Assembly (NCBI GenBank): GCA_022706235.1
Contig: JAKJCY010000024.1
Span: 1-36,608, forward strand
Reading direction: 5' to 3'
From: Candidatus Hydrogenedentota bacterium
GTDB lineage: Bacteria; Hydrogenedentota; Hydrogenedentia; Hydrogenedentales; CAITNO01
DNA length: 36,608 nucleotides
Below are positions 2,996 through 21,046 of the stretch, piece by piece. The translations under genes were made by a program, and so were the position numbers. Position 1 is the first letter of the stretch, and each line of letters begins with the position of its first letter. A model generated the notes under the pieces. That model ran no database searches, was not told the DNA's origin, and saw only the letters and a list, made by a program, of their open reading frames with translations.

Positions 2996-4495
2996 TTACC
3001 TCAAGTGATTAAGATGCGTCGCCACCTCGGACACTGTTGCCGAGGCGCCGGCAACGGCGGAACAGTCCAGGCGCTCCCGGGACGCCCGTGTCGCCGCGGC
3101 GGCAAGGCTCGTATCGCCGATAAGAATCGCTCCGGCGAGCAGGCCGTCACGGAACAGGAAACGCCTGTACGAACCTTCCTGCCGGTCCACGATTTCCCGG
3201 TAACTGCCATCATCGGGCTGTATGACACCCATACTGAACAACTTGATCCCCAGCACTTTCAGCGTGTTCGCCCGGGGCAGGCCGCCGAATTCAGACAGGG
3301 CCCCGGCGGCATTGAAACCGGCGATGGTTCCCTGGTATTGGGCGGGTTCCCATAATCCGGCGACGGCGCCGCCGAATTCCGCGCAGTCACCCGCCGCATA
3401 GATGTCGGGCGCCGAGGTGGCCATGCGCATATCGACGACAATCCCCTGGTTAACAGCGAGGCCCGCGCGACGCGCCAGGTGGCTGTTTGCCCGCACGCCC
3501 GTGGTGATGGTAACGGCCTTGGCCGTCAATCGCGTACCATCCTGGAGCAACACCGACGCCACCGCGTCTTCGCCTTCAATTGTCCGGCTGGAGGCCGTAG
3601 TGCGGACGGTGATTCCCATGGAGGCGACATGCGCTTCCAGCACCTTCGCGGCATCCCGGTTTAACTGGCGCGGCAGGAGGTATTCGAATCCCTCCAGCAG
3701 GGTCACCTGGGCACCCTGCCTGGCCAGCGCACCCGCGGTCTCCAGGCCCAGGATGCCCCCGCCGATGCATACGCAGGGAGTGTCCTTTTCCACTAGAGAA
3801 AGCAGGGTGTTTGCATCCTTCAACGTTCGCACCGCGGACACGCCCCGCAGTTCAGACCCCGGAATGGGGGGGATAAAGGGGTGGGCGCCACAGGCCAGAA
3901 TGAGTTTGTCGTAGGAAACGGTCTCTCCGCCATCGGTGGTAATCCTGTGTGCGTCCGGGTCCAGTTCCTGGATGGTCACGCCCGTGCGCAGCTGTATTGT
4001 ATGCTGCTCATACCAGTCGCGCGGGTGCATGGTAAGTTCCGTATCGGCGATTTCGCCCGCAAGGCGGCGCGTCAGGTTGAGCCGGTAATAGGGCAAATCG
4101 GTTTCCGCCGTAAACAGAAGAATCTCCGCGTTGGGAAGGGTCTGTCGGACGGCCGCGGCGGCGCTTACGCCCGCAATGCCGCCGCCGACAATGACGATCC
4201 TGCGGCGGTCGTCGGCGTTGACGGTCTCGTGGGAAGCCTCAACGCACGGCTCAAATTCTTCCTTGCCCGCGCCGCATAGCGGGCAGGTATCGGGTGGGGT
4301 TTCCCCGTCGTGAACGTAGCCGCAGATGATACAGCGCCAGGAGGCGCTTTCCGATGGCGACGGGGGAGAGGCATCTTCGAAGGCTTCGAAGTCATCCGCC
4401 GGGGCGCCGCATACCGGGCAGGCTTCCGGCGGAGTATCGCCGCGATGCACATATCCGCACACCACGCATTTCCAGGCACGGGTAGGGTCGGCCAC
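2996..4495 (-). CDS. FAD/NAD(P)H oxidoreductase with two rubredoxin-like domains
   Basis: 499 aa from a GTG at 4495, preceded by AAGGAG at 9 nt; the longer open frame runs back into the GH4 gene and is not credible as coding. Two near-identical metal knuckles open the protein: CxxC pairs at 10-13/26-29 and at 55-58/71-74, each with the CGY...PP..CP.CGA pattern of rubrerythrin-type rubredoxin domains. A pyridine nucleotide-disulphide oxidoreductase module follows: FAD-binding GGGIAG at 104-109, a central NAD(P)H-binding GGGILG, and the second FAD motif YAAGDCAEF. The family includes NADH:rubredoxin oxidoreductases and NirB-like proteins, so electrons probably pass NAD(P)H to FAD to the Fe(Cys)4 centres within one chain. 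Cytoplasmic; no signal peptide. It starts 43 nt after the GH4 stop, so co-transcription is likely. The electron acceptor is unknown. Confidence 0.85.
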   Translation of the reverse strand: MADPTRAWKCVVCGYVHRGDTPPEACPVCGAPADDFEAFEDASPPSPSESASWRCIICGYVHDGETPPDTCPLCGAGKEEFEPCVEASHETVNADDRRRIVIVGGGIAGVSAAAAVRQTLPNAEILLFTAETDLPYYRLNLTRRLAGEIADTELTMHPRDWYEQHTIQLRTGVTIQELDPDAHRITTDGGETVSYDKLILACGAHPFIPPIPGSELRGVSAVRTLKDANTLLSLVEKDTPCVCIGGGILGLETAGALARQGAQVTLLEGFEYLLPRQLNRDAAKVLEAHVASMGITVRTTASSRTIEGEDAVASVLLQDGTRLTAKAVTITTGVRANSHLARRAGLAVNQGIVVDMRMATSAPDIYAAGDCAEFGGAVAGLWEPAQYQGTIAGFNAAGALSEFGGLPRANTLKVLGIKLFSMGVIQPDDGSYREIVDRQEGSYRRFLFRDGLLAGAILIGDTSLAAAATRASRERLDCSAVAGASATVSEVATHLNHLR

Positions 4496-4538
4496 TATGA
4501 CTGCTCCTTTTTGGTTACAGGGTTGCGTGTGCTTAGAT

Positions 4539-5966
4539 TTAGTTGGAAGCTTTTTCCGCCAATTCGCCGAAGCGGTGCACCACGGCGAGCGCCGGGTCGA
4601 GCGGTACGGGCGCGTGTCCGGTTCCCGGAGGCGTTTCGATGTCCGGAGCGGCTCGCAACTGCTTTCCGGCGAATTGGGGCAGCCATTGTTTCTCTGCCTC
4701 GAGCATTTCGGCAACCATATCACGCGCCTGCTTCAGCGTCAAACACGCGCTGGTGAGCGGGTCCAGGGCCGCGGCGGCCACGGCCAATTCCGGGTCGCCC
4801 GTCAGCGCCGCTTCCACGGTCAATCCTTGGGCGGTCACGTTGCTCTGGTTCAGCGCGGCCAGTTGTGCCGGCAGCGCGCCCACCCGCACCGGGTGCAGCC
4901 CGAGCCGGTCCGCGAAGACCGGCACTTCCGCGCAGCAGCCGTCCGGCAGATTGGATATATACCCGTCGTTGCGCAGATTCCCCTGGAACTTGAATATTTT
5001 GCCCGTTTCCAATGCTTCCAGGATGTAGGAGCAATATTCCACGCTGCGCGGTCGTATGGATGAAGGTTCTTGCGCGAGCATATCCGTGTTTTCAAGTTTG
5101 TCCGCTATCAGCCGGCACCATTTCAGGTAGGCGCCGGTCTCCCCGCCGAAGGCGGGCTCATCGCAATAGCGTTCCAGGGCATCTTTGCTGCTGCGGAACC
5201 ACGGCACGTATTCAGACAGGTGTCCGGTGCTTTCCGTCATGAAATACCCGAAATGGCGCATCACCTCGATACGCACCTTTTCATTAATGTAATACTCGGG
5301 CAACTCACATTTTTCCTTGAACAAGGGGTACAGGTCTTTTCCCCGGTGTTCCATCTTGAGAAACCAGCCCATATGGTTAATACCTGCCGCCAGGTAGTCA
5401 ATTTCCGCCTTTGGCACGCCCACATACCCCGAAATCAGGTCGAGGGTGGTCTGTACCCCGTGGCACAAGCCGACGTAGTTCAGCCCCGGCACTTTTCCCA
5501 GCGCCCAGCATACGGACGCCATGGGATTGACGTAGTTGAGCAGATACGCGTTCGGACACAGTTCTTCCATGTCCCGGGCGAGGTCCATCATGACGGGTAT
5601 GGTGCGCAACGCGCGAAACAGGCCACCCGGCCCGAGCGTGTCGCCAATACACTGGTCCACGCCGTGTTTCATGGGGATTTCATAATCCAGTTGAAAGGCA
5701 TCCACGCCGCCGACCTGCAGCATGGCAATGACATAATCGGCGTCCTTCAGCGCTTCCCGCCGGTCCAGGGTCACCATGGTAGTGGCGGAAAGGCCATTGT
5801 CCTTGATGACCCGGTCGGCAAACATCTTCATGCGCTCCAGTTTAGGAAGGGTCCGGCTCATGAACCGGAACTCACTGTTGCGCAGGGCGGGCGTAGCCAC
5901 CATATCCAGAAACAAGGTCTTGCAAAATACAATACTTCCCGCGCCAATCATGGCAATTTTAGGCAT
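4539..5966 (-). CDS. GH4 family glycosidase (alpha-galactosidase/alpha-glucosidase type)
   Basis: 475 aa. GH4 enzymes use NAD+ and a divalent metal for a redox-assisted hydrolysis. Visible are the Rossmann loop GAGS at residues 8-11, the NYVNPM motif at 144-149, the metal-ligand Cys-His in GLCHG (C168, H169), and INHMGWF at 196-202 with the second metal/substrate His. This pattern resembles the MelA-like alpha-glycosidase branch more than phospho-beta-glucosidases, but substrate cannot be read from it. I start at the ATG at 5966, because AGGAGG at 5975-5980 lies 8 nt from it and only 2 nt from the alternative ATG at 5972. Cytoplasmic. Head of the closely spaced GH4-oxidoreductase-PHP lipoprotein run. 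Confidence 0.88.
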
Positions 5967-7856: not shown

Positions 7857-7885
7857 TTGCATTTCCGATTCATTTGTGTTATATT
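7857..7885 (+). promoter_or_regulatory. Sigma-70-like promoter of the riboswitch transcript
   Basis: TTGCAT at 7857-7862 and TATATT at 7880-7885, separated by exactly 17 nt. Transcription would begin near 7892, about 30 nt before the riboswitch aptamer. Confidence 0.7.
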
Positions 7886-7922
7886 CTGTTCAACAGTTTA
7901 ATCTTGCCGATACTCAGGTATG

Positions 7923-8017
7923 CAGACGAACGCGAGGGAAATGGCCCAATGACCGTTCGGGCAACCAGCCGCAAGGCGGGTGCCACTGCCATCTCGGATT
8001 GCCGAGAACCATGTCTG
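7923..8017 (+). promoter_or_regulatory. SAM-I (S-box) riboswitch aptamer
   Basis: The strand carries the S-box landmarks in the right order: the kink-turn strand GAGGGA, then GGCCC, then AATGA (the UGA strand of the kink-turn), then GGGCAACC, then a short hairpin (AGCC GCAA GGC), then GGTGCC. Helices can be drawn for the whole aptamer: P1 CAGAC/GTCTG (7923-7927 with 8013-8017), P2 GAACG/CGTTC flanking the kink-turn, P3 ACC-GCC/GGC-GGT, and P4 CTCGG/CCGAG. S-box RNAs bind S-adenosylmethionine and usually switch off methionine/SAM synthesis or transport genes by forming a terminator. Here a terminator follows 24 nt later, but the next gene is a MoxR ATPase. The aptamer call is from conserved sequence and pairing; the downstream target is the puzzle. 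Confidence 0.87.
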
Positions 8018-8040
8018 GGAACGTTGGAAAAGTGTTTTCC

Positions 8041-8080
8041 AGCCCCCTCATGATCCGACCTGAGGGGGCTGTTCGTTTTT
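8041..8080 (+). terminator. Intrinsic terminator of the SAM riboswitch
   Basis: A perfect 10-bp stem, AGCCCCCTCA (8041-8050) with TGAGGGGGCT (8061-8070), is followed by GTTCGTTTTT. Between aptamer and terminator lies another small stem (TGGAAAA/TTTTCCA, 8024-8040). CTGG inside the 3' strand of P1 can pair with CCAG overlapping the terminator stem, which gives a plausible antiterminator. The arrangement is that of a transcriptional OFF switch. Confidence 0.85.
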
Positions 8081-8211
8081 GTCCCCCTCCTGTCCGTTCA
8101 TGAACCCGCCCGTCCGCTTCCTGTGTATTCGATGCGGCGGGTCCATTGGGGATGCCGCCGCCTGTATCCGTGGTTGTGCCTAACGGCACGCAACGATAAG
8201 GAAGGACGGAC

Positions 8212-9708
8212 ATGGCGGAGCGAAAGAAAGCACTTGTGAAAAATGCGGGCGGATTGAAGGCTTACGCAAAAGCGAAACGGGGGAGCGGGGCCCTGCTGAC
8301 CAAACCCCTGGGACTGGAGGGCTGGGACCACCTTGAGGCCGTGCTGCTGGCCGCAGTGGTTTCGGAAACGCCCCTGCTGCTGGTGGGTCCCCACGGCTGC
8401 GCAAAGAGTTTCTTCCTGGAGAAACTCGCCAAAGCCCTGGGCCTGGAGTACCGGTTTTATAATACCAGCCTCATCAACTACGACGACCTGGTCGGTATTC
8501 CGGTCCCGAGCCAGGACCGCAAAAGCCTGGAATACATCTCCATTCCGTCCTCCATCTGGGACGCAGAGGTGGTGTTCATGGATGAGATCAACCGGACCCG
8601 GCCGGACCTGCAGAATAAAATCTTTCCCATCATCCACGAACGACGGGTACAGGGGGTACCCCTGGAGAAGTTGCGTTTTCGCTGGGCGGCCATGAATCCC
8701 CCGGCCGCTGACAGTATCTCCGATGAGGTGTGTTATCTGGGGGCTGATCCGCTGGACACGGCGCTGGCCGACCGCTTCGGCTTCATTGTCGAAGTGCCCG
8801 CCTGGAAAGACCTGAACCAGGAGGAACGGCGCGCCGTGCTGGCGGATCAGTTCTCGGGGGACCACCCCTTTCCGGTGGCGTTGGACCGCCTCATTGAAAC
8901 GGCGCGGGAACGGTTCGACGGCCTGCGCCAGGTGCGCCAGTATGAGATTGAGGACTACCTGATTCTGCTGTCCGAAGAACTCGCCAAGGCGGGCGTGACC
9001 CTTTCCACCCGCCGCATGGCCATGCTGCATGCGAATATTCTGGCGCTTCATGCCGCCATTGAAACGCTCCACGAATTAAAAAGTGGGCGCAAGAGGCGCG
9101 AGAACTGGGGCGCCTCCGCCTGGACCGCGCTGCGATACAGCCTGCCCCACATAGCCGAAGGTACGGCTCCGGAACCGGTAAAAATCCGCTCCGCCCATCT
9201 CCAGGCGTGGAAATTGATGCAGACCAGCAACGACTCGGCGGAACGGGCGTTGCTCACGGTGTCCGATCCGGTTGAACGCGCCCTTAAGGCGGTGCGCGGC
9301 GCCAAGGTATTGCCCGCGGAAACGCTCGGCGCCGCCGTCATCAACCTGCTGGCGAGTACGGACGACATGGCCGAGCGGGGCGCGCGGTGTCTCGCCTTTT
9401 ATTTGGCGTCCCACACGCGCTTGACCCTGCCCAACACGGCCCTGGCCGCGTTGCACGAAACCTTGTCCGGGATACTCACGCCGAGTTCCAGCTATATCAA
9501 GGTGCAGGACAGCCAAAAGGTGTTCTTCGTGGAGATGACGGAAACGGTCAAGAGCGTGAAGAATGAAGAAGAACGTATTGTCGCCCATCACGCGATGAAC
9601 CTTGCGGAGTGGGTGTTTGAGAAAACCGGACGCACCCTGGACAGCAAGCGCGCCCAGGCCCGTTTCCGTGAACTCTACAGGAAATTCAGCGCGGCCTGCG
9701 CGGCATAA
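8212..9708 (+). CDS. MoxR-family AAA+ ATPase
   Basis: 498 aa. The AAA+ core fills the first half: Walker A GPHGCAKS (59-66), Walker B VVFMDE (120-125), sensor 1 region AAMNPP (159-164), and the arginine-finger segment LADRF (185-189), all as in MoxR proteins. The C-terminal 200 residues are helical and without a recognisable motif, longer than in minimal MoxR proteins. MoxR ATPases act as chaperone-like remodelers, normally with a VWA-domain partner encoded nearby; the VWA protein three genes downstream is the obvious partner. Start ATG is preceded by AAGGAAGGA at 5 nt. The only promoter I see upstream is the SAM-riboswitch promoter, so this gene is probably the first gene of that transcript. 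Confidence 0.9.
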   Translation: MAERKKALVKNAGGLKAYAKAKRGSGALLTKPLGLEGWDHLEAVLLAAVVSETPLLLVGPHGCAKSFFLEKLAKALGLEYRFYNTSLINYDDLVGIPVPSQDRKSLEYISIPSSIWDAEVVFMDEINRTRPDLQNKIFPIIHERRVQGVPLEKLRFRWAAMNPPAADSISDEVCYLGADPLDTALADRFGFIVEVPAWKDLNQEERRAVLADQFSGDHPFPVALDRLIETARERFDGLRQVRQYEIEDYLILLSEELAKAGVTLSTRRMAMLHANILALHAAIETLHELKSGRKRRENWGASAWTALRYSLPHIAEGTAPEPVKIRSAHLQAWKLMQTSNDSAERALLTVSDPVERALKAVRGAKVLPAETLGAAVINLLASTDDMAERGARCLAFYLASHTRLTLPNTALAALHETLSGILTPSSSYIKVQDSQKVFFVEMTETVKSVKNEEERIVAHHAMNLAEWVFEKTGRTLDSKRAQARFRELYRKFSAACAA

Positions 9709-9722
9709 GAAAGGAAAACAGT

Positions 9723-10337
9723 ATGCGTATCTTTGGCAAAAACGATACCAAATTGTTGATGGGTGACGGAACGGGCGGCGGAACCGGTTGTGCCGGAAGA
9801 AGGCCCCGAAATATAAGTGTCACGATTAATATTTGTCGCGAACCGGCTTGCCCGATTACCGTGTTCAGCCTGATGTTCATGCTGCACCGGAACGGCTTGT
9901 GGATACCGGAACAGACTCCGGATACGATTTCAGGCCCGGAACTCTTGGCCGCGTTTAAGCGCGAAGTCCTGGAACCTGCGCTTCTGAGCGGTGACGATGA
10001 AGTATGGCCGCTGGTGGAAACGCTTCAGGTGGACCGGGAGCAGGTGGATCGGGCCGCCCGGGAACAGTTCCCGGGATATGCATTTTACTGGAACTACAAC
10101 GTGGATACTTTCAACGCATTTGATAAACACTTCATTCCAGAACGCCGGTTTTGTGTGGATCCTGTGCATGCGCTGGCTGTAATGGCAAGGCTTAACGGAG
10201 GATTCTATCATTCGGAGCGAAGCCCCGATTACAGTATCGGCCACCTTTGCGATAGCGGTGTCGCATTCAGCGACCCCCGTTTTTACGGAGAACCCATGTA
10301 TCCCCTTTGGAATCAAAAAACGGCCGGTAAGGCCTGA
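9723..10337 (+). CDS. Unrecognised protein, first of a tandem paralogous pair in the MoxR/VWA cassette
   Basis: 204 aa, family not recognised. It starts 14 nt after the MoxR stop with AAGGA 8 nt before the ATG, so it is surely co-transcribed. The first 35 residues are Gly-rich and basic. The rest is a compact domain with conserved blocks shared with the next gene: a FMLHRNGLW helix, EVWPLVE, VDREQVDRAA, a YW.YN aromatic stretch, RRFCVDP, ALAVMAR and a PDYSIGHL segment near the end. No signal peptide, membrane segment or nucleotide-binding motif is visible. Its constant position between ATPase and VWA protein suggests a cofactor, adaptor or substrate of that machine; this is inference only. 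Confidence 0.75.
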   Translation: MRIFGKNDTKLLMGDGTGGGTGCAGRRPRNISVTINICREPACPITVFSLMFMLHRNGLWIPEQTPDTISGPELLAAFKREVLEPALLSGDDEVWPLVETLQVDREQVDRAAREQFPGYAFYWNYNVDTFNAFDKHFIPERRFCVDPVHALAVMARLNGGFYHSERSPDYSIGHLCDSGVAFSDPRFYGEPMYPLWNQKTAGKA

Positions 10338-10359: not shown

Positions 10360-10984
10360 ATGAACCCCATATCCAACATCGCGTTGAAAAGCGGCCAATC
10401 CGCCCCGGCGTCCCCCCCCGCAATGTGAGGCCTATGACCCGACAGATTCGATCCTGTATAAACTGATGCACTGTGACAAGGTGGCCCGGCCCTTCGTGGA
10501 GCAAAAACTGAACACCGCCTCGACTATTATGGCATTCAACCTGGGCTTGATGCTGTACCGGAACGGTCTATGGAAGCCGGCGGAACCGCAAAAAATCAAA
10601 ATCGTTACGCAAATGCAATCGGCCTTCCGGTGCGAGATCCTCGAACCCCGCGGATACACCTTGGACAGCGAAGTCTGGCCCCTGGTAAAGCCGCTGGAGG
10701 TGGACCGGGAACAGGCGGACCGGGCGGCGTGTTCGCAGCTTCCCGGCTTTTTCTTCTGCTGGAACAAATGTTCCGCCTGCGATGAAATCTTTTCCGTATT
10801 CCTGCCGCAGCGCCGCCTCTGTGTGGAAGCGGCCCTGGCCCTGGGGGTCATGGCGCGCATCAGGGACGGGTTCTATAGGTCCGATCGCACGCCGGACTAC
10901 ACCTTTGGTCATCTCATGGAACAGTTCGTGTTCATCGCCGATACCCGATTGACCGGGGCGCGGCTGTATCCCATGTGGTCGTGA
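10360..10984 (+). CDS. Second paralog of the pair, reading frame interrupted at a C8 run
   Basis: An ATG at 10360 with a good ribosome site (AAAGGA, 9 nt) opens a frame that stops after about 22 codons just past eight consecutive C (10412-10419). Removing one C joins it to the frame that continues to 10984, giving about 207 aa, close to the 204 aa of the upstream paralog. The long frame alone would have to start at the ATG at 10466, which has no ribosome site. Shared blocks with the first paralog are LMLYRNGLW, EVWPLVK, VDREQADRAA, RRLCVE, ALGVMAR and PDYTFGHL. Unlike its sister it has a CWNKCSAC cluster. The frame break may be a sequencing or assembly error, phase variation, slippage, or real decay. 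Function unknown. Confidence 0.65.
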
Positions 10985-11085
10985 AGCGCCGCTTGAAAGC
11001 GTTCAAGGTTAAGTCATTTATTGAACATAATGCCGGTATCCGGGGGCGCCCGAAAGGGCCCCGGATCGCGGCAGGAGGGCGTAGT

Positions 11086-12558
11086 ATGAAATCCAACCCC
11101 GAAACGGCAATCGTTTCGACACCTGCGGGAGAGGCCGAAGCGGCCTTGGTCCGATTTAAAAACCAGATTATTAATGTATTGCCGGCGGGAACAGTGTACC
11201 TGGAGACGTTCCTGAAACTGGCCGATATACAATGGAGCGAAAGATTGACCTCCGCCGGAATCACCTGCGAAGACGCCCCCCGCCTGCTGGTCAACCGGGG
11301 CTGTGTCGAAAAGTATTGCCGCATAGACGATGACGTCCTGGTGCTGGTGATGCATGAACTCTATCATGTGCTTTATGGACACCACACGCTGTTTATGAAT
11401 GCGGGCGTGGCCCACAACATCGCCTTCGACGCCGTGATTAACGCGCGCCTGTGCCGCAGTTGGAGGAGTTCCCGAAGCGCCCGGTTCTTCCGCCGGGTTT
11501 ATCCAAAGCCGGGTTTTCCTGAAATTCTGTTGTGTCCGCCGCCGGAATGGCCCCAAACCGCCTCTCCCGACGCCCTGGCGAAAGAAGAGGTGCGACTCGC
11601 GGCAGAACTGGAACCCGAACTTCTCCGGGAAACCCTGGACCTGCGCAACCGGCTCTATGGCGGCGAAAATACCGTTTCCTATGAGGATATCCTGCGCCTG
11701 CTGCGAAAAAAAGCCCCCGAAACCAAACCTGTCCTGCTGGGTACCCATCACAGTCCGGGGGACCCTGAATGTCCGGAGAGGCAAATCGAGGCCACCTCCG
11801 ATCCCCTGCTGGTGGATACGGCCCGGCAAATGAACGAGCACCTGGAGCAGTTGGACGGCAGCCGGAAGGCCGGAGGCAATATGGGCCTGCACGATATAAA
11901 CCCGCCGGACAGGAATCCACGACGGACCTTTCTAAGGGCGCTGCGGGCGGTGTTGATGAAAGCCGGCGTGTATCAGCAGCGCGGTTCCCGGTACCGGCAG
12001 CGTGCCATGGCCGACATCCTGCGCCAGTCCATGTCCATCCTGCCGGAATGGCGCGATCGCACCGTCGCCGCAAAGGAAATCTTACTGGACACGACGCCGC
12101 TCCTCTACACCCGGGAGGTCCCCGCGCGGGCGCGCCTCTGGATGCCCGCACGTCAGGCGCACATCTACCTCGATTTCAGCGGGTCCATGTGGGATGACCT
12201 GCCCTGGATCATCGGCGCCCTGGCGCCGCTGGAAAAGGCGGGGCTCTGCCGGATATTTCTGTTCAGTACACAAGTATATGATGGGCCTAAAAACGGCATC
12301 TCTTCAAAAGCGCTTAAAACCACTGGGGGCACGGAAATTGAATGTGTGCTGCGTCATATCCTGGAGGTGCCCCCGAAGAAACGACCACGCCAGGCCGTCG
12401 TCCTTACAGACGGGTATTTCTGCATGCCCGGAACGGGGTTGATGACGGAATTTAAGGAATCCCGGGTGCTGTTGCATGGCGCCATCACGCATACGGGAAG
12501 TATGGCGCCCATGGACCACATCGCGGAGTATGCGGTGAAACTGCCGGACTACCACTGA
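11086..12558 (+). CDS. Metallopeptidase-like / VWA-domain protein (COG3864 type)
   Basis: 490 aa from the ATG at 11086, chosen because AGGAGGG lies 6 nt before it; a longer in-frame ATG at 10975 overlaps the previous gene and has no ribosome site. The N-terminal domain carries HELYHVLYGHH (90-100), an HExxH zinc-peptidase-like motif with further His after it, as in DUF2201-type predicted metallopeptidases. The C-terminal domain is VWA: DFSGS (D363) is the MIDAS metal site, with TGGTEIE and VVLTDGYF completing it. Proteins with this pair of domains are commonly encoded next to MoxR ATPases, as here. Whether the His motif is proteolytically active is unknown. Cytoplasmic, no signal. Last gene of the cassette; a repeat array follows. 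Confidence 0.88.
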   Translation: MKSNPETAIVSTPAGEAEAALVRFKNQIINVLPAGTVYLETFLKLADIQWSERLTSAGITCEDAPRLLVNRGCVEKYCRIDDDVLVLVMHELYHVLYGHHTLFMNAGVAHNIAFDAVINARLCRSWRSSRSARFFRRVYPKPGFPEILLCPPPEWPQTASPDALAKEEVRLAAELEPELLRETLDLRNRLYGGENTVSYEDILRLLRKKAPETKPVLLGTHHSPGDPECPERQIEATSDPLLVDTARQMNEHLEQLDGSRKAGGNMGLHDINPPDRNPRRTFLRALRAVLMKAGVYQQRGSRYRQRAMADILRQSMSILPEWRDRTVAAKEILLDTTPLLYTREVPARARLWMPARQAHIYLDFSGSMWDDLPWIIGALAPLEKAGLCRIFLFSTQVYDGPKNGISSKALKTTGGTEIECVLRHILEVPPKKRPRQAVVLTDGYFCMPGTGLMTEFKESRVLLHGAITHTGSMAPMDHIAEYAVKLPDYH

Positions 12559-12651: not shown

Positions 12652-12730
12652 TTTCCCGGCCGGATTTCCTGCGCCGAGAAACGGCGAGTGCACTTCACCT
12701 TTTCCCGGATTCTAGGCACTCAGTGGGATG

Positions 12731-13488
12731 TTCCATTCGCGTTGCGATTATTCCACCTTCAGGTCCCCCTTTGAAGGGGGATCAAGGGGCATGTTGCCCT
12801 TAACAAAACCGTGCAGTACACAAAATTATTGTGAGACGTTCCATTCGCGTTGCGATTATTTCACCTTCAGGTCCCCCTTTGAAGGGGGATCAAGGGGGAT
12901 GTATGCTCTTAACAAAACCGTGCAGTACAAAAAATTATTGTGAGACGTTCCATTCGCGTTGCGATTACTTCACCTTCAGGTCCCCCTTTGAAGGGGGATC
13001 AAGGGGGATGTATGCCCTTACCAAAACCGTGTAGAGCAAAAAATAGTGTGAGACGTTCCATTCGCGTTGCGATTATTCCACCTTCAGGTCCCCCTTTGAA
13101 GGGGGATCAAGGGGGATGTATGCTCTTACCAAAACCGTGCAGTACAAAAAATTATTGTGAGACGTTCCATTCGCGTTGCGATTATTCCACCTTCAGGTCC
13201 CCCTTTGAAGGGGGATCAAGGGGGATGTATGCCCTTACCAAAACCGTGTAGAGCAAAAAATAGTGTGAGACGTTCCATTCGCGTTGCGATTATTTCACCT
13301 TCAGGTCCCCCTTTGAAGGGGGATCAAGGGGGATGTATGCCCTTACCAAAACCGTGTAGAGCAAAAAATAGTGTGAGACGTTCCATTCGCGTTGCGATTA
13401 TTTCACCTTCAGGTCCCCCTTTGAAGGGGGATCAAGGGGGATGTATGCTCCTAACAAAACCGTGCAAAACAAACGACTATTGCGAGAA
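12731..13488. repeat. Seven tandem copies of a 108-109 bp repeat containing a strong hairpin
   Basis: Copies begin (TTCCATTCGC) at 12731, 12839, 12948, 13056, 13165, 13273 and 13381. Each holds the palindrome TCCCCCTTTGAAGGGGGA followed by TCAAGGGGGAT. The linker between copies comes in two main types: one with GTGCAGTACAAAAAATTATTG (after copies 1, 2 and 4) and one with GTGTAGAGCAAAAAATAGTG (after copies 3, 5 and 6). The first and last copies are the most diverged, as expected for growth by internal duplication. Open frames across it are repeat artefacts. It lies between the MoxR/VWA cassette and the restriction-type module and would give a transcript a series of strong hairpins. Confidence 0.93.
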
Positions 13489-13650: not shown

Positions 13651-16600
13651 ATGGCCAACGATACATTTCAATTGAGACATCTCTTCGAGTTCTTCGTGCC
13701 CAGCCAATGCCGCTGCGGTGAGTCTCTTCCTGATGAAAAGAGAAAGGAGGTATTGGGTGAGGCTAAAAAACGTATGTCTACATGGTTTGGCGGTTTTACC
13801 GTTACTGAAGCCCGGGGGGGATTTGTGCTGGAATCAGGGCAACTTGCGGAAGAGCCGGTATCCATTATCTTCAGCAATGCCACTGACGAAGCGCTGAAGA
13901 AACACAAAAATGATTTTATGGCGTTCGCCGAAAGCATTGCGACTCGCCTTTCCCAGGAAGCCATCGGCTATCGCATTGACGGTAAAATGTCTTTTGCGGA
14001 CGGTGACTCTAGTGTCCCCTGCATGCACAGACAGGCGCGGTTCACGAAAATGGATAGGAGGAAACGAGAGGTTCTCCTGGGGTATCAAGCTTTGGAGGTC
14101 GCTTTGCGACGTTTGTGTGATGGCGGCGCCCAAGATCGGCGGGATGCCTTTTTCAGTCTCGTCACCCATACGCTGGGGTATGATTTTGTAAATAAGCCGG
14201 TATCTACGCCCAATTGGGCGAATGAGATTCGGCAGTTACTTTTTAAACAAAAACCGCCAATCGTGGTTGCACAGAGCGATTCCGGCTTTAAAATCATACT
14301 TATTACCCTTGCAGATGAGCGCCTGCTTCTCACGGAACAACGGCAGATAATAGAGAGGTTGCTTAAGGATAACAATACCTTACGTGCCCTGTTCGTTGTT
14401 ACCAACGGCAACCAAAGCCATTGGCACTTCGTCAATGTACCGGAAAATACCACAGATAAACGTAGGCTGTTGCGGCGTTTCCGTATTGAGTCAAAAGATC
14501 AGCCCATGCGTACTATTGTGGAGCAATTCTCTCTTATAGATGTACAGAAAATCGGCGGAAAGGCATCAGTGATCGATATCAAGAAAGTTCACGATACCGC
14601 TTTTGATGTCGAGGCGATCACGAAGGAGTTTTACAAAAGTTATAAGGCCCTCTTCGATATTTTGCAGGAAGACCTGGGCAGGCAAACCGGGGACCGGGTC
14701 TGGGCGCATGACTACGTATTGCAGTTTCTCAACCGATTGATGTTTATTTATTTCATTCAGCGCAAACGCTGGCTGGGTGACGACCTGGATTTTCTAAAGC
14801 ATTTTTGGGACGCCTACAGGAAGGCCAAACAGCCTGACAATTCCTTTGTCAAACGCTGGCTGACCGTACTGTTTTTTGAGGCATTCAATGAAAAGTTTCA
14901 CGGTGGCCATGACTATTTTCCGGAAGGAATCAGCAAAACCCTTCAAATGGCCCCCTATCTAAACGGTGGCCTGTTTACACGCAACGATCTCGATGAACAA
15001 TATGTCAGAAAACTTACCATTACGGATGAACGGTTTGAGCAAACCATTACGTTTCTGGAGCACTACAATTTTACGGTAAGCGAGGATACCCCCCTGGACC
15101 AGGAAGTGGCGGTAGACGCCGAAATGCTGGGCAAGGTGTACGAAAGCCTGGTCAATGTATCTGAAGAAGAAAAAAGCGAAGAGGGAACCAAAAAGAAAAA
15201 GTCCGACAAGAAAAAAGAAGCGGGTATTTTCTACACGCCCCGTACGGAAATTGACATGATGTGCCGGTTGGCGCTGGTGGACTACCTCACCAATCACCTG
15301 GGGGAAATACATAAGCCCTTGCTCTATGAAACGGTTTTCGCGTACGCCTTGGAGGACAAGGCGTCTGCGGACAACAAACTTACCGAAAACAATTTGTGGG
15401 GCGAACTGGATGCCCTTCTCCAGAACATTACCGTGGTTGACCCTGCCTGCGGTTCCGGGTCCTTTCTCATCGGCATGCTGCAGGTGCTGGACGACCTGAT
15501 ACAGCGGGCAGATACCATATTGGGGCGAACGCAGACACCCTATGAGCGTCGCAAACGTATCATTGGCCAATCCCTGTATGGCGTGGATGTCATGCGCTGG
15601 GCCGTGGACGTGGCGGAGTTACGCCTGTGGCTTCAGCTGGTGGTGGAAACGGAACTGAAACCGGCCGAACTCAAGCTAAATCCCCTCTTGCCCAATCTCA
15701 CCTTTAAGATACGCCGAGGCGACAGCCTGGTGCAGGAACTGGGCGGTATAAACATGGCCCATATCAAAGGGCAGCAGACGCTCTCCCCCGCTTTAAAAGG
15801 TAGGCTTACCAGACTCAAAGGGGAAAAACTGAAATTCTATAACAATGACTTCGATCCTGAATTCAAAAATCTCAACGTTATTGAGCGGGAGGAGCGGGAG
15901 ATATTCCTCGATATTTTGAAGGAACGCAAGCATACCCTGGAGAATCGCCTGAAGGAACGCAAGCGCGCTCTCGCCACGGATACCGATCTACTGGGTGTTA
16001 CCGTCATAGGATTTGACAGTAAACCTCACACCGATGTGGAGGCGGAAGCGGTAGATATAGAAGCGGATATTTTACGGACAAAGAAAGCGCTCAACGCGCT
16101 TTCGGGGACAAAGGAATGTCCCTTCGTTTGGGACATCGCTTTCGTGGAAATTTTCACGGGCGAACGGGCGGGCTTTGATATTGTCATTGGTAACCCACCC
16201 TATGTGCGTCATGAACAGATTGCAGACCCAATGCTCGATAGAGAAGAGAGTGCTCCTGAATCGAAGACTGTTTACAAGGGTAAGCTTATCCAATCCGTGT
16301 ACCGCCTTTGGCCATCCTTTTTCGGTGTTGACTCGGAAAAACCAAAACACAAGATTGCTGAAAAGAGCGATCTATATATTTACTTCTACTTCCATGGAAT
16401 GGCCTTGCTCAACAATAAAGGTTCCTTCTGCTTTATCACCTCCAATTCCTGGCTCGATGTGGATTATGGTAAGGACTTGCAGCAATTTTTGCTCGAATAC
16501 GGGCACATTAAAATGGTGATTGACAATCAGGCAAAACGCTCCTTCAGTTCCGCTGACGTCAATACCGTAATTACCCTGCTGGCCGCACCGGAGAAACGGG

Positions 16601-17724
16601 TTGTGCCACTGCATACGAAGATGGCACGCTTCGTTATGTTCAAGGTGCCTTTTGAACAGGTGATTACCCATGATGTTTTCACATTCATTGAAGCAGTCAA
16701 AGATCGTTATTCCAATCCTGCGTATCGCGTGTGCCCGTTAGACCAGAAAACACTATTTGAAAAGGGATGCGATATACCGGAGGACGATGAATCGCACGCA
16801 ATTCCGACCAGGGGTAAATCGCAGGGCCCGCTCATTAAAGTTGCCCGATATATCGGAAATAAATGGGGTGGCAAATACCTTCGCGCGCCGGATATCTACT
16901 GGACCATCCTTGATAAAGGTAAGGGGAAGCTCGTCCGTCTTGGCGATATCGCTGAAGTGCGACGTGGCTTTACTACAGGGGCAAACGAATTTTTCTATCT
17001 CACGAATGAAGAGATACAGGAATGGGGAATCGAAGCAGAGTTCCTGAAACCAGTGATTGTGAGTCCAAGAGAGTGTGCCTCTGTTGAAGTGGTATTAAAA
17101 GATCTAAAGTACAAGGCTTTCTGCTGTAATTTGAACATGAAAGAGATAAAGGGAACAGCAGCACTGGAGTATATAAAATGGGGTGAGAAACAATCCTTCG
17201 ATTGCAGGCCAAGCTGTCGCAATAGATCGCTCTGGTATTCTTTTCCGGAAAAAGAGTGGGCAAAAGTCCTATGGCCCATGATACATAACGATCGTCTTAG
17301 TGTGTTCTGGAACAAGAAAAGAGTTGCTGTAGATCATAACTTATTTGAAATCTATGGTTTTGATGATGATGTACTATGGGGTAGCCTTGCGTGGACTGGT
17401 CAAGTTCTCTTTCGAGAATTACATGGAAGGGCAAATCTGGGGCAGGGGGCGTTAAAAACAGAAGGTATTGATATCAAGACTCTATGTATTATTGGCTTGG
17501 GTGATAAGAAAATACGTGAGGGGTTTAAGTCATCCAGATCAGCTCTTTCTGAAAGGAATATAGGGAACGTTAAAGATGAATCTGCGAAGAATGACCGACA
17601 CCTTTTGGATAGTGTAGTTTTCGATCTTTTGAGTTTTTCAAAAGGTGAACGAGAAGCCATATATGAGGCCGCCATCGAACTTGTTGAATCCCGTCTAAAG
17701 AAAGCAGACAGTTTAAACGCATAA
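13651..17724 (+). CDS. Eco57I-type N6-adenine DNA methyltransferase with target-recognition domain
   Basis: 1357 aa. The long N-terminal part (about 1-500) resembles the N-terminal regions of type IIG/ISP-like proteins (for example FLNRLMFIYFIQRKRWLG), but I cannot see a clear PD-(D/E)XK nuclease site. A Lys/Glu-rich linker leads to GIFYTPRTEID, then methylase motif I DPACGSGSF (D597) and motif IV NPPY (N848). An extended insertion separates them. From about residue 1096 the sequence RLGDIAEVRRGFTTGANEFF marks a TaqI-like/HsdS-like specificity domain, then a C-terminal helical tail. It should methylate adenine at a specific site using SAM. Start ATG has AAAGGAAG 5 nt upstream. It is 19 nt from the helicase gene, and the two probably form one restriction or anti-phage module. 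The 3' third is visibly richer in A/T than the helicase gene. Confidence 0.88.
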   Translation: MANDTFQLRHLFEFFVPSQCRCGESLPDEKRKEVLGEAKKRMSTWFGGFTVTEARGGFVLESGQLAEEPVSIIFSNATDEALKKHKNDFMAFAESIATRLSQEAIGYRIDGKMSFADGDSSVPCMHRQARFTKMDRRKREVLLGYQALEVALRRLCDGGAQDRRDAFFSLVTHTLGYDFVNKPVSTPNWANEIRQLLFKQKPPIVVAQSDSGFKIILITLADERLLLTEQRQIIERLLKDNNTLRALFVVTNGNQSHWHFVNVPENTTDKRRLLRRFRIESKDQPMRTIVEQFSLIDVQKIGGKASVIDIKKVHDTAFDVEAITKEFYKSYKALFDILQEDLGRQTGDRVWAHDYVLQFLNRLMFIYFIQRKRWLGDDLDFLKHFWDAYRKAKQPDNSFVKRWLTVLFFEAFNEKFHGGHDYFPEGISKTLQMAPYLNGGLFTRNDLDEQYVRKLTITDERFEQTITFLEHYNFTVSEDTPLDQEVAVDAEMLGKVYESLVNVSEEEKSEEGTKKKKSDKKKEAGIFYTPRTEIDMMCRLALVDYLTNHLGEIHKPLLYETVFAYALEDKASADNKLTENNLWGELDALLQNITVVDPACGSGSFLIGMLQVLDDLIQRADTILGRTQTPYERRKRIIGQSLYGVDVMRWAVDVAELRLWLQLVVETELKPAELKLNPLLPNLTFKIRRGDSLVQELGGINMAHIKGQQTLSPALKGRLTRLKGEKLKFYNNDFDPEFKNLNVIEREEREIFLDILKERKHTLENRLKERKRALATDTDLLGVTVIGFDSKPHTDVEAEAVDIEADILRTKKALNALSGTKECPFVWDIAFVEIFTGERAGFDIVIGNPPYVRHEQIADPMLDREESAPESKTVYKGKLIQSVYRLWPSFFGVDSEKPKHKIAEKSDLYIYFYFHGMALLNNKGSFCFITSNSWLDVDYGKDLQQFLLEYGHIKMVIDNQAKRSFSSADVNTVITLLAAPEKRVVPLHTKMARFVMFKVPFEQVITHDVFTFIEAVKDRYSNPAYRVCPLDQKTLFEKGCDIPEDDESHAIPTRGKSQGPLIKVARYIGNKWGGKYLRAPDIYWTILDKGKGKLVRLGDIAEVRRGFTTGANEFFYLTNEEIQEWGIEAEFLKPVIVSPRECASVEVVLKDLKYKAFCCNLNMKEIKGTAALEYIKWGEKQSFDCRPSCRNRSLWYSFPEKEWAKVLWPMIHNDRLSVFWNKKRVAVDHNLFEIYGFDDDVLWGSLAWTGQVLFRELHGRANLGQGALKTEGIDIKTLCIIGLGDKKIREGFKSSRSALSERNIGNVKDESAKNDRHLLDSVVFDLLSFSKGEREAIYEAAIELVESRLKKADSLNA

Positions 17725-17743: not shown

Positions 17744-20700
17744 ATGTCCGACATCATCGACAATCGTGATACAAAACTTGTTGATTCCATCAACGCTATT
17801 CTGCCGACCTCAGCGTCGGTGGACTTTGCGGTGGGCTATCTCTTTCTTTCCGGTCTGGGGGCGATTGAAGCCACCCTGGATGCGCCGCAGCGGTTGCGCC
17901 TGCTGATCGGGAACGCGACGGACCGGGAGACGATTGAGCATCTGGCAGCGGCCTTTCATCGGGCGGAGTTGGTCCAGGAGCAGCAGGAGCGGGAGAAGTA
18001 CCTGACGCGGCAGCAGACGCGGGAGCGGGCGGCGGAAACGGCGCTGCAACTGCGGGAGGCCCTGTCGCTCATGGACCAGGGCAATGCGGAACAGGCGGTG
18101 GTATCCAAGGTCATGCGGCTTATTGTGGAGGGGCGGCTGGAGCTGCGGGTATATACCCGCGGCCGGCTCCACGCGAAGGCCTATATCTTCCATTACCCCG
18201 CGGGGGAGCGGTTTGAGAACGGCATGGGCATTGTGGGTTCCAGTAACCTGACCCTGGCCGGATTGACGCACAACTCGGAACTGAATGTGGCGGTCCACGG
18301 CAACGAGAACCACGCCCAACTCGCGGCCTGGTTCGACCGGCTGTGGGCGGAATCGACGGACTTCTCCGATGCGCTGTTGACGGAGCTGCGCCAGTGCTGG
18401 GCGGCCGCTGCCGTGACGCCCTATGACATCTACATGAAGACCTTATATGAACTGGTGTCGGAACGGATGGAAGGCCCGGCGGACGACGGCACCCTGTGGG
18501 ATGACGAGTTGACCCAGGCCCTGGCGGAATTCCAGAAGGAGGCCGTGAAAAAGGGGGTGCAGGTCATCCGCGAATACGGCGGCGTATTCATTGCCGACGT
18601 GGTGGGCCTCGGCAAGAGTTTCATCGGTGCGGCCATTCTGAAGCATTTCCGGCGCACGGAAGGCTGCAAGCCGCTGATTATCTGCCCGGCGCCCTTAAAA
18701 GAGACCTGGGAGGAATTCAGCCACCAGTTTGATTTGGGCGCGCGGGTGGTTCCCATGAGCATGCTCCGGGGCAGCCGCAACGTGCTGACAGGCAAACAGT
18801 ACCAGGACTATGATTTCGTGCTCATTGACGAAAGCCATCATTTCCGGCACCACACCTCGCAGCAGTATGCCGCCCTCCAGGACTTCCTGTTCAAACGGCG
18901 GAGTAAGCTGTGCCTGCTGACCGCCACACCCCGAAACAAGAGCGCCTGGGACGTGTACAATCAGATCAAGTTGTTCCACCCGGACGATATCACCATGCTG
19001 CCCGTGGACCCGCCCAATCTGAAGGACTATTTTAAACTGGTGGAGAAGGGATCGAAAACGCTGCAGACCCTGCTGAAACCCGTGCTGGTGCGGCGGACAC
19101 GAAGGCATATCCTGCGCTGGTACGGCATTGCGGAGGATTCCGGCCGATACCTGCGCGAGATGGACGACGGTCAGGCGGCCGACTACCTGAACGGCCGGAA
19201 GCGGGCCTACGTGATGGTGGGCGCACGACAGAACTATTTCCCCCGGCGCCGCCTGGGAACCCTCGCCTATAATATTGACGAGACCTATGCCGGGCTCTAC
19301 GATCACCTGCGCAGCCGCCTAGGCGGCAAAACCAACGGCGGTACGGGCGCGCACCTGAATTACGCGCGCTTCGGCCTGTGGCATTATGTCCTGCCCGCGA
19401 AACGGGACTTGCAGCCCTACCAGGGCCTGCACCGGGCGGGCGCCAACCTGCACGGCCTGATGCGGGTGATGCTCTTCAAGCGGCTGGAATCGAGCGTGTA
19501 TGCCTTTCTGAAAACGCTCGAACGGATGATCCTGATTCATGACGGGTTCCTGAAGATGCTGGACCAGGGCATCATCCCCGCCGGGGAAGAGGCCCAGAAG
19601 ATCCTGTACGCGTCCGACGCCATGGAGGAAGATGATCTGATCGAGGCGCTGGCGGGCTGCTGCGGGAAATACAAGATTGAAGATTTTGACGGGGACCGCC
19701 TGCGCCGGGACATTGCCGCTGATCGCGATTTGCTCGAACAGATGCGATCGGAAGTCGCCGCCATCACGCCGGACCAAGATGCCAAACTCCGGGTACTGCA
19801 GGAGAAACTGAACACCGACATCCCCAAGGCTTCGGGGAAGGTGCTGGTTTTCACCCAGTTCGCGGACACGGCGGCCTACCTGTATCAGAATTTGAATCCG
19901 GGCGACAGGAACAGCGCCATAGACGTCATTTACGGCACGGAAAAGAGCAAGGCCCGGGTGGCCGCGCGCTTTTCTCCCTTGTCCAATCCCTATATCCAGC
20001 TCAAGTCAAATGAACCGGAAATCAACCTGCTGATCGCCACCGATGTCATGTCGGAAGGGCTGAACCTGCAGGATGGCGATGTGATCGTCAATTATGATCT
20101 GCACTGGAACCCGGTGCGGCTGATCCAGCGCTTCGGCCGTATCGACCGTATCGGCACGGAAAATGACGAAGTCTGGGGCTTTAATTTTCTGCCCGAGCGT
20201 CAGCTGGACCAGAACCTGGGCCTGACCGTGACGCTCAGGGCGCGTATCCAGGAGATTCATGACACCATCGGCGAAGATGCCGCCATTCTGGACCAGGAGG
20301 AACGGATTAACGAAGAGGCCATGTTCGCCATTTACGAGAACCGGGACGGCCAGATGCTGCTGGCGGAAGAGGAGGAAGACGGGATACCCGACCTGGCCGA
20401 GGCGGAGGAATTCTTCCGCCGCCTGCAGGAAGAAGACCCGGAGGAATACAAACGCATCGCCGAACTCCGCAACGGCATCCGCAGCGCACGGACGGTGTTC
20501 TCGGGACAGGGCACCTATGTCTTCTGCCAGGCGGGCAAGTTCCAGCAGTTATACCTGGTAGACAACATAGGGAATACCATCTCCAAGGATATGGAGGAGG
20601 TGCTCCGGCGCATCCGCTGTCCCAGGGAGGAACGGCGCGACCCCGTGCCAGTGACTCACAACCAAACCGTAATGCAGGTGAAAGCGGAATTCGAAGCGGA

Positions 20701-21046
20701 TGTTCGGGAACGCATCGCGCAGCAGGAATCCCTCTTGTCCTTATCGGCCGCGCAGAAGTACGTCATCCGAGAACTACGGGCCCATGAAGCGCGCACGGAA
20801 GACGACGACGTGCGGCGTCGGTGCCTGGTCCTGGAGGAAGCCTTCAAGCAAACCCTGCCGGCGGCGTTGCGCAAGAACCTGAATACCATGCGGCGCAATG
20901 GCGTTACCGGGGACAATCTGGTCCGCAATCTGGCGGAACTGTATCAAGCCTTCGATCTGGGCGCCCGTGCGCAGAATGACCGGATTAAAATTGAACAGGA
21001 AGTCGCCGCCATCCCGAGGATCATCTGCAGCGAGGCGCTGCTCTGA
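17744..21046 (+). CDS. PLD-nuclease / SNF2-type DEAD-box helicase
   Basis: 1100 aa. Residues 1-200 form a phospholipase-D-like nuclease domain: H143 and K145 in LHAKAYIF and GSSN (N168) with LTLAGLTHNSELNV after it. The Asp of a full HKD motif is not at its usual place. A superfamily 2 helicase follows: motif I GLGKS (288-292), motif II DESH (362-365), LLTATPR (motif III), a LLIATDVMSEGLNLQD segment (motif V) and QRFGRIDRIG (from Q795, motif VI). The C-terminal 250 residues are charged and helical. Such proteins are found beside large adenine methylases in defence modules; here the pair would supply methylation in one chain and translocation plus cleavage in the other. Probably translated from the same transcript as the methylase. 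GC-rich, unlike the methylase 3' end. Confidence 0.9.
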   Translation: MSDIIDNRDTKLVDSINAILPTSASVDFAVGYLFLSGLGAIEATLDAPQRLRLLIGNATDRETIEHLAAAFHRAELVQEQQEREKYLTRQQTRERAAETALQLREALSLMDQGNAEQAVVSKVMRLIVEGRLELRVYTRGRLHAKAYIFHYPAGERFENGMGIVGSSNLTLAGLTHNSELNVAVHGNENHAQLAAWFDRLWAESTDFSDALLTELRQCWAAAAVTPYDIYMKTLYELVSERMEGPADDGTLWDDELTQALAEFQKEAVKKGVQVIREYGGVFIADVVGLGKSFIGAAILKHFRRTEGCKPLIICPAPLKETWEEFSHQFDLGARVVPMSMLRGSRNVLTGKQYQDYDFVLIDESHHFRHHTSQQYAALQDFLFKRRSKLCLLTATPRNKSAWDVYNQIKLFHPDDITMLPVDPPNLKDYFKLVEKGSKTLQTLLKPVLVRRTRRHILRWYGIAEDSGRYLREMDDGQAADYLNGRKRAYVMVGARQNYFPRRRLGTLAYNIDETYAGLYDHLRSRLGGKTNGGTGAHLNYARFGLWHYVLPAKRDLQPYQGLHRAGANLHGLMRVMLFKRLESSVYAFLKTLERMILIHDGFLKMLDQGIIPAGEEAQKILYASDAMEEDDLIEALAGCCGKYKIEDFDGDRLRRDIAADRDLLEQMRSEVAAITPDQDAKLRVLQEKLNTDIPKASGKVLVFTQFADTAAYLYQNLNPGDRNSAIDVIYGTEKSKARVAARFSPLSNPYIQLKSNEPEINLLIATDVMSEGLNLQDGDVIVNYDLHWNPVRLIQRFGRIDRIGTENDEVWGFNFLPERQLDQNLGLTVTLRARIQEIHDTIGEDAAILDQEERINEEAMFAIYENRDGQMLLAEEEEDGIPDLAEAEEFFRRLQEEDPEEYKRIAELRNGIRSARTVFSGQGTYVFCQAGKFQQLYLVDNIGNTISKDMEEVLRRIRCPREERRDPVPVTHNQTVMQVKAEFEADVRERIAQQESLLSLSAAQKYVIRELRAHEARTEDDDVRRRCLVLEEAFKQTLPAALRKNLNTMRRNGVTGDNLVRNLAELYQAFDLGARAQNDRIKIEQEVAAIPRIICSEALL

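Follow-up and report, generated by a model that had tools for sequence, protein, structure and literature searches.

The 36.6-kb window, by which we mean the whole stretch of DNA that was analysed, forms contig 166 of a draft genome of 5.0 Mb that is 88% complete and 6% contaminated, and the named relatives that carry the same gene cassette are metagenome-assembled genomes of Candidatus Hydrogenedentota. The original prediction of a SAM-I riboswitch in this DNA was borne out by the Rfam covariance models. A cmscan search of the entire window placed RF00162 at positions 7915-8017 on the forward strand with 59.6 bits against a gathering cut-off of 44.4 (E = 1.5e-11); the match is full length (model positions 1-108), it is the sole Rfam gathering match in the window, and it was recovered again by a whole-genome search. 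Of the bounds first proposed, 7923-8017, the end was correct, but the start clips helix P1 and belongs at 7915. Its aptamer resembles the SAM-I and SAM-I/IV (RF01725) families in sequence and structure, with scores above the gathering level, and from this likeness it would be expected to bind SAM. SAM-I elements are usually, though not by definition, located before methionine or SAM genes. Unlike those, this one has a MoxR gene as its first gene and controls a MoxR-VWA operon.

Behind the aptamer lies an intrinsic terminator at 8040-8080 (+), with an 11-bp main stem (8040-8050 paired with 8061-8071; -22.9 kcal/mol by RNAfold) and a U-rich tail. It had been described as a textbook terminator; the stem is present, but the U tract is interrupted (TTCGTTTTT) and the element was left uncalled by a simple consensus scan. 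Calling the upstream promoter good was likewise too strong: TTGCAT/TATATT does not match the sigma-70 consensus and gave 0 matches in the scan. We derived the switching fold by folding 3'-truncated leaders with RNAfold, which yielded a predicted antiterminator at 8010-8052 (+) composed of the pairings 8010-8013/8049-8052, 8017-8019/8045-8047 and 8023-8031/8035-8043; three divergent homologous leaders behaved alike. The CAUG at 8010-8013 is common to the predicted antiterminator and the 3' strand of P1, and positions 8040-8052 are common to the predicted antiterminator and the 5' arm of the terminator. This geometry is kept in four sequence-divergent Hydrogenedentota leaders, namely that of the window and three others, which have clean T7 runs, and in all four the expression platform is predicted to be exclusive with P1. 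Because the antiterminator and terminator behind the aptamer are mutually exclusive, we predict a transcriptional OFF switch, a platform shared with SAM-I and SAM-I/IV riboswitches. When SAM is plentiful, the aptamer would close P1, the antiterminator would be blocked, and transcription would stop.

The genes that follow form a cassette whose core consists of MoxR, a fast-evolving small protein that we call B, and a VWA/HExxH metallopeptidase. As predicted, the first gene encodes a MoxR-family AAA+ ATPase (8212-9708, +; Pfam AAA_5, AAA_3 and bpMoxR, and the family alignment), whose ATG at 8212 follows the terminator by about 132 nt and whose Walker A and Walker B motifs are GPHGCAKS and VVFMDEIN. 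Protein B (9723-10337, +) has homologues at this position in relatives and belongs to no Pfam or PADLOC family; its AlphaFold model (pLDDT 80.6) has no PDB match, and we rejected its assignment to a known fold on that basis. A second copy of B, 44% identical to the first by alignment, is encoded at 10466-10984 (+). The VWA protein (10975-12558, +) carries the metallopeptidase motif in HELYHVLYGHH and a MIDAS motif, DFSGS. A motif scan of 53 homologues found HExxH in all 53 and MIDAS in 50, and one homologue (L085) matches Pfam VWA_CoxE and DUF2201_N. No component of the core, including the SAM synthetase-like protein MetK' described below, is represented in PADLOC. We also considered a phage- or plasmid-borne element, which is unsupported: the cassette was not found in IMG/VR and had no close plasmid match.

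Further downstream on the same strand are an Eco57I/PglX-like, type IIG-like N6-adenine DNA methyltransferase (13651-17724; Pfam Eco57I, 2.4e-29; PADLOC REase_MTase_IIG, 175 bits) and an HKD/PLD nuclease fused to an SNF2 helicase (17744-21046; Pfam PLDc_2, SNF2-rel_dom and Helicase_C; PADLOC C3a139 HKD+Snf2, 254 bits). In the window, about seven 108-bp units repeated in tandem (12723-13487; TRF), each containing the motif CCCCCTTTGAAGGGGGATCAAGGGGGA, form an array between the VWA gene and the methylase. The suspected link between cassette and methylase was strengthened by two relatives, G008 and G006, in which no such array occupies the corresponding place and the methylase lies 117 nt and 49 nt, respectively, 3' of the VWA gene. 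The methylase and HKD-SNF2 pair is also present in G011 and G013, whose cassettes are interrupted by contig ends, and in a rumen locus, L104.

A whole-genome search of the window genome (G000) returned two SAM-I matches, each ahead of a MoxR gene of the same family. Among the 17 genomes of family f1 listed, SAM-I was present only in G000, G002, G006 and G008, where it always precedes the cassette, and only cassette carriers have SAM-I. Separately, in three genomes of the same order we observed SAM-I elements of 120-136 nt before threonine synthase (L020, L021 and L022).

We then looked beyond these relatives by scanning the MoxR alignment against 84,980 species genomes, which gave 79 loci. The sample is mostly metagenome-assembled genomes, some with unreliable organism names; gene calls are our own ORF calls, and the pattern-based locus finding is not exhaustive. 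Besides the window and its C509 paralogue, 67 operons had a readable upstream region, 69 in all, and these upstream regions were checked by whole-genome RF00162 search, cmscan of the loci, permissive cmscan of about 1 kb upstream, and a custom model. A SAM riboswitch lies just upstream of MoxR in 62 of the 69, across more than ten phyla: 15 are SAM-I, 46 are SAM-I/IV or like it, and one is weakly SAM-II-like. Thirty-two of the 62 elements score above the Rfam cut-off, and the remainder are matches to the custom model or sub-threshold matches to Rfam models, each of them correctly oriented and a short distance upstream. The custom model, R1, was built from 27 training sequences and represents 14 pairs, only part of the structure, so that its matches rest mostly on sequence; those outside the training set were counted as support solely for strand and position. 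The permissive upstream search returned essentially SAM riboswitches and nothing else.

These counts bear on two simple explanations of the arrangement. Chance adjacency is rejected: cmscan of 140 kb of loci gave five gathering matches, every one of them in a MoxR leader, and 118 kb of outgroup MoxR loci gave zero Rfam matches. The second, raised in the original prediction, is that the riboswitch was orphaned by a rearrangement that removed its met gene. It is true that no met gene stands directly behind the window aptamer; however, the recurrence of the same pairing throughout the MoxR family and the maintenance of the switching fold argue against an orphan, and on these comparative data we reject this explanation as extremely improbable. 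The other possibility offered at the outset, that the cassette responds to SAM, gains from the same survey, and SAM control of the cassette is well supported.

The seven operons that yielded no SAM element comprise four from Anaerolineae (L125-L127 and L130), which also lack MetK', two from Firmicutes (L128 and L129), and L097, which adjoins a contig end. In two Firmicutes loci MetK' is present and the SAM element absent. As a side observation, two Firmicutes cassettes with MetK' and without a SAM riboswitch (L194 and L195) have a conserved leader upstream, together with a divergently transcribed small ORF that is putatively regulator-like.

The class of riboswitch is not constant within the family. 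On a tree of 70 MoxR proteins and two outgroups, 5-6 changes are required to explain the SAM-I label and 7-8 to explain the SAM-I/IV label; thus the class was swapped several times while SAM control persisted, unlike usual SAM-I and SAM-I/IV elements in that the class is exchanged between homologous operons. Because SAM control that outlasts the exchange of RNA class is hard to explain otherwise, we take SAM to be the relevant signal. Expression platforms may differ as well: several leaders from gut-Firmicute-like and Acholeplasma loci contain a downstream (CU)CUUUAUGG complementary to the 5' strand of the aptamer, CCAUAAAG(AG), suggesting a different platform there. Two further leader types deserve mention. 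In a Myxococcota locus (L203, 801-878), a weak SAM-II-like match lies upstream of MoxR (24 bits against a cut-off of 36); SAM-II is structurally unrelated to SAM-I. Two Chloroflexota loci have tandem SAM-I elements before MoxR (L201, 72-174 and 239-339; L202, 53-152 and 210-309, minus strand), suggesting a steeper or two-input response.

No SAM synthetase is encoded in the window, whereas 41 homologous loci carry one, MetK', as the fourth gene of the cassette after VWA. MetK' occupies the fourth place more often than any other gene does and usually closes the cassette; it is absent in Hydrogenedentota, Acholeplasma and others, where the riboswitch is still kept. A canonical metK is present elsewhere in all 36 genomes checked. 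Against the canonical MetK model (TIGR01034), MetK' proteins score 94-173 bits, below the cut-off of 309. Like canonical MetK they retain H14, D16, D118, K165, D238, K245, K265 and D271, which are invariant across 36 sequences, and their ATP/phosphate residues do not vary. In contrast to canonical MetK, E55 is replaced by R in 34 of the 36, Q98 and I102 are replaced, and R229 is read from the sequences as D. Since the published SAM contacts of the E. coli enzyme are E55, Q98, I102, H14, D163, R229, F230 and D238 (PMC8727953), four of the eight are altered. With ATP/phosphate residues kept and SAM contacts changed, MetK' is probably catalytic with an altered methionine side, and the subfamily is possibly a new S-adenosyl-transferring enzyme. 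The rumen locus L104 encodes one member of it (4004-5179), and 40 other loci encode the rest.

Two other observations concern SAM synthetases. At L224 (G064:C12:82000-89000), a canonical-like metK heads the cassette and MetK' ends it, and a SAM-I/IV-like element (32.7 bits) precedes the canonical-like gene. Many Streptococcus phages (MK448997.1, MK448935.1 and others) encode a SAM synthetase that is 25-28% identical to MetK'.

The residue pattern of MetK' could also be read to mean that the enzyme makes a modified S-adenosyl compound and that the riboswitch provides feedback on that compound instead of on SAM. The four altered contacts beside invariant ATP/phosphate residues would suit such an analogue; yet standard models of SAM-I and SAM-I/IV fit the aptamers, and MetK' is missing from the window and from other carriers, which leaves this explanation improbable.

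The main rival to a role in phage conflict is metabolic. MoxR-VWA pairs serve other enzymes, as in NorQD, CbbQO and CobST, and the MoxR-VWA pair might likewise activate, metal-load or repair a SAM enzyme (MetK' where present) when SAM is limiting. That metK is a classic S-box target speaks for such a module, as do the prevalence of MetK' in fourth, usually last, place and the G064 cassette headed by a canonical-like metK behind its SAM-I/IV element. On the other hand, a canonical metK already exists in every genome checked, the methionine pocket of MetK' is changed, the switch persists in lineages that lack MetK', the distribution is patchy across phyla, and the cassettes of Hydrogenedentota and L104 have a restriction-like pair attached. 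We regard the metabolic module as a real possibility, though on balance a doubtful one.

That restriction-like pair raises the comparison with known defence systems. In Hydrogenedentota the N6 methylase and HKD-SNF2 take the place of MetK' behind the VWA gene, and L104 bridges the two forms, for there a single run of genes holds MetK', an XRE regulator, HKD-SNF2 and the methylase. In loci other than L104 and those of Hydrogenedentota, defence genes were not a consistent feature among the neighbours examined downstream. A published analysis (PMC12839542) describes MoxR-vWA-peptidase systems as counter-invader modules; in Type-2 BREX-related systems, it assigns the effector and self-marking parts to HKD-Swi2/Snf2 with an N6-MTase. 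The cassette resembles the former in that a MoxR AAA+ with Walker motifs adjoins a protein joining a VWA domain with MIDAS to a peptidase motif, accompanied by a fast-evolving small third component. It differs in adding a SAM riboswitch and a MetK' gene, and its third component, B, was not recognised as iSTAND and had no family or PDB match. The term riboswitch is absent from that paper (PMC12839542), and our literature search, with subscription papers outside its reach, found no paper that connects SAM riboswitches to MoxR or to phage defence. The window shares the HKD-Swi2/Snf2 helicase and N6 DNA methyltransferase with Type-2 BREX-related systems; however, Pfam identified no DUF499 ATPase among its 17 proteins, and MoxR-B-VWA stands in the operon in place of that ATPase. 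DISARM, defined by drmA and drmB next to drmMI or drmMII, was not found, as there were only weak DrmMI-, DrmD- and DrmA-like cross-matches and no DUF1998 among the scanned neighbours. A defence role for the cassette is plausible.

We consider it likely that the window holds a working SAM-I OFF switch acting on its own operon, and that the operon responds to SAM depletion, most likely in phage conflict. The recurrent pairing with different kinds of SAM switch makes these genes appear built to be switched on at low SAM, and expression would rise under that condition. Falling SAM would allow the genes for MoxR, B and the VWA-metallopeptidase to be read together with the genes downstream, usually MetK' and, in Hydrogenedentota, the N6-methylase and HKD-SNF2. 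Phage conflict is plausible because the SAM lyase of phage T3 degrades SAM and inhibits MetK (PMC11580459); by lowering SAM, phage SAM-degrading enzymes cause up-regulation of the host methionine pathway (PMC7877911). A leader that is off in SAM would thus turn the cassette on exactly during an attack on the SAM pool, and the phage SAM lyase would itself be the trigger.

A bolder and rather unlikely extension is that the cassette is a mobile conflict module whose SAM riboswitch serves as an infection alarm, a counter-counter-defence gated by a metabolite. Here a phage SAM lyase or heavy methylation would drain SAM and cause the MoxR-VWA-metallopeptidase to be made, along with a MetK' that might escape inhibition by the phage lyase or might make a modified cofactor; the alternative partner would be the methylase and HKD-SNF2 restriction unit.

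The operon family spans many phyla, and its near-constant feature is SAM control through exchangeable riboswitch classes, and this argues strongly for low SAM as its physiological trigger. The finding offers a way into MoxR-VWA-peptidase systems and the signals they answer to, and the survey brings to light a subfamily of SAM synthetases in which the methionine pocket is changed. Were the conflict reading true, a metabolite riboswitch would turn immunity on when the cofactor of restriction systems is taken away by a phage.
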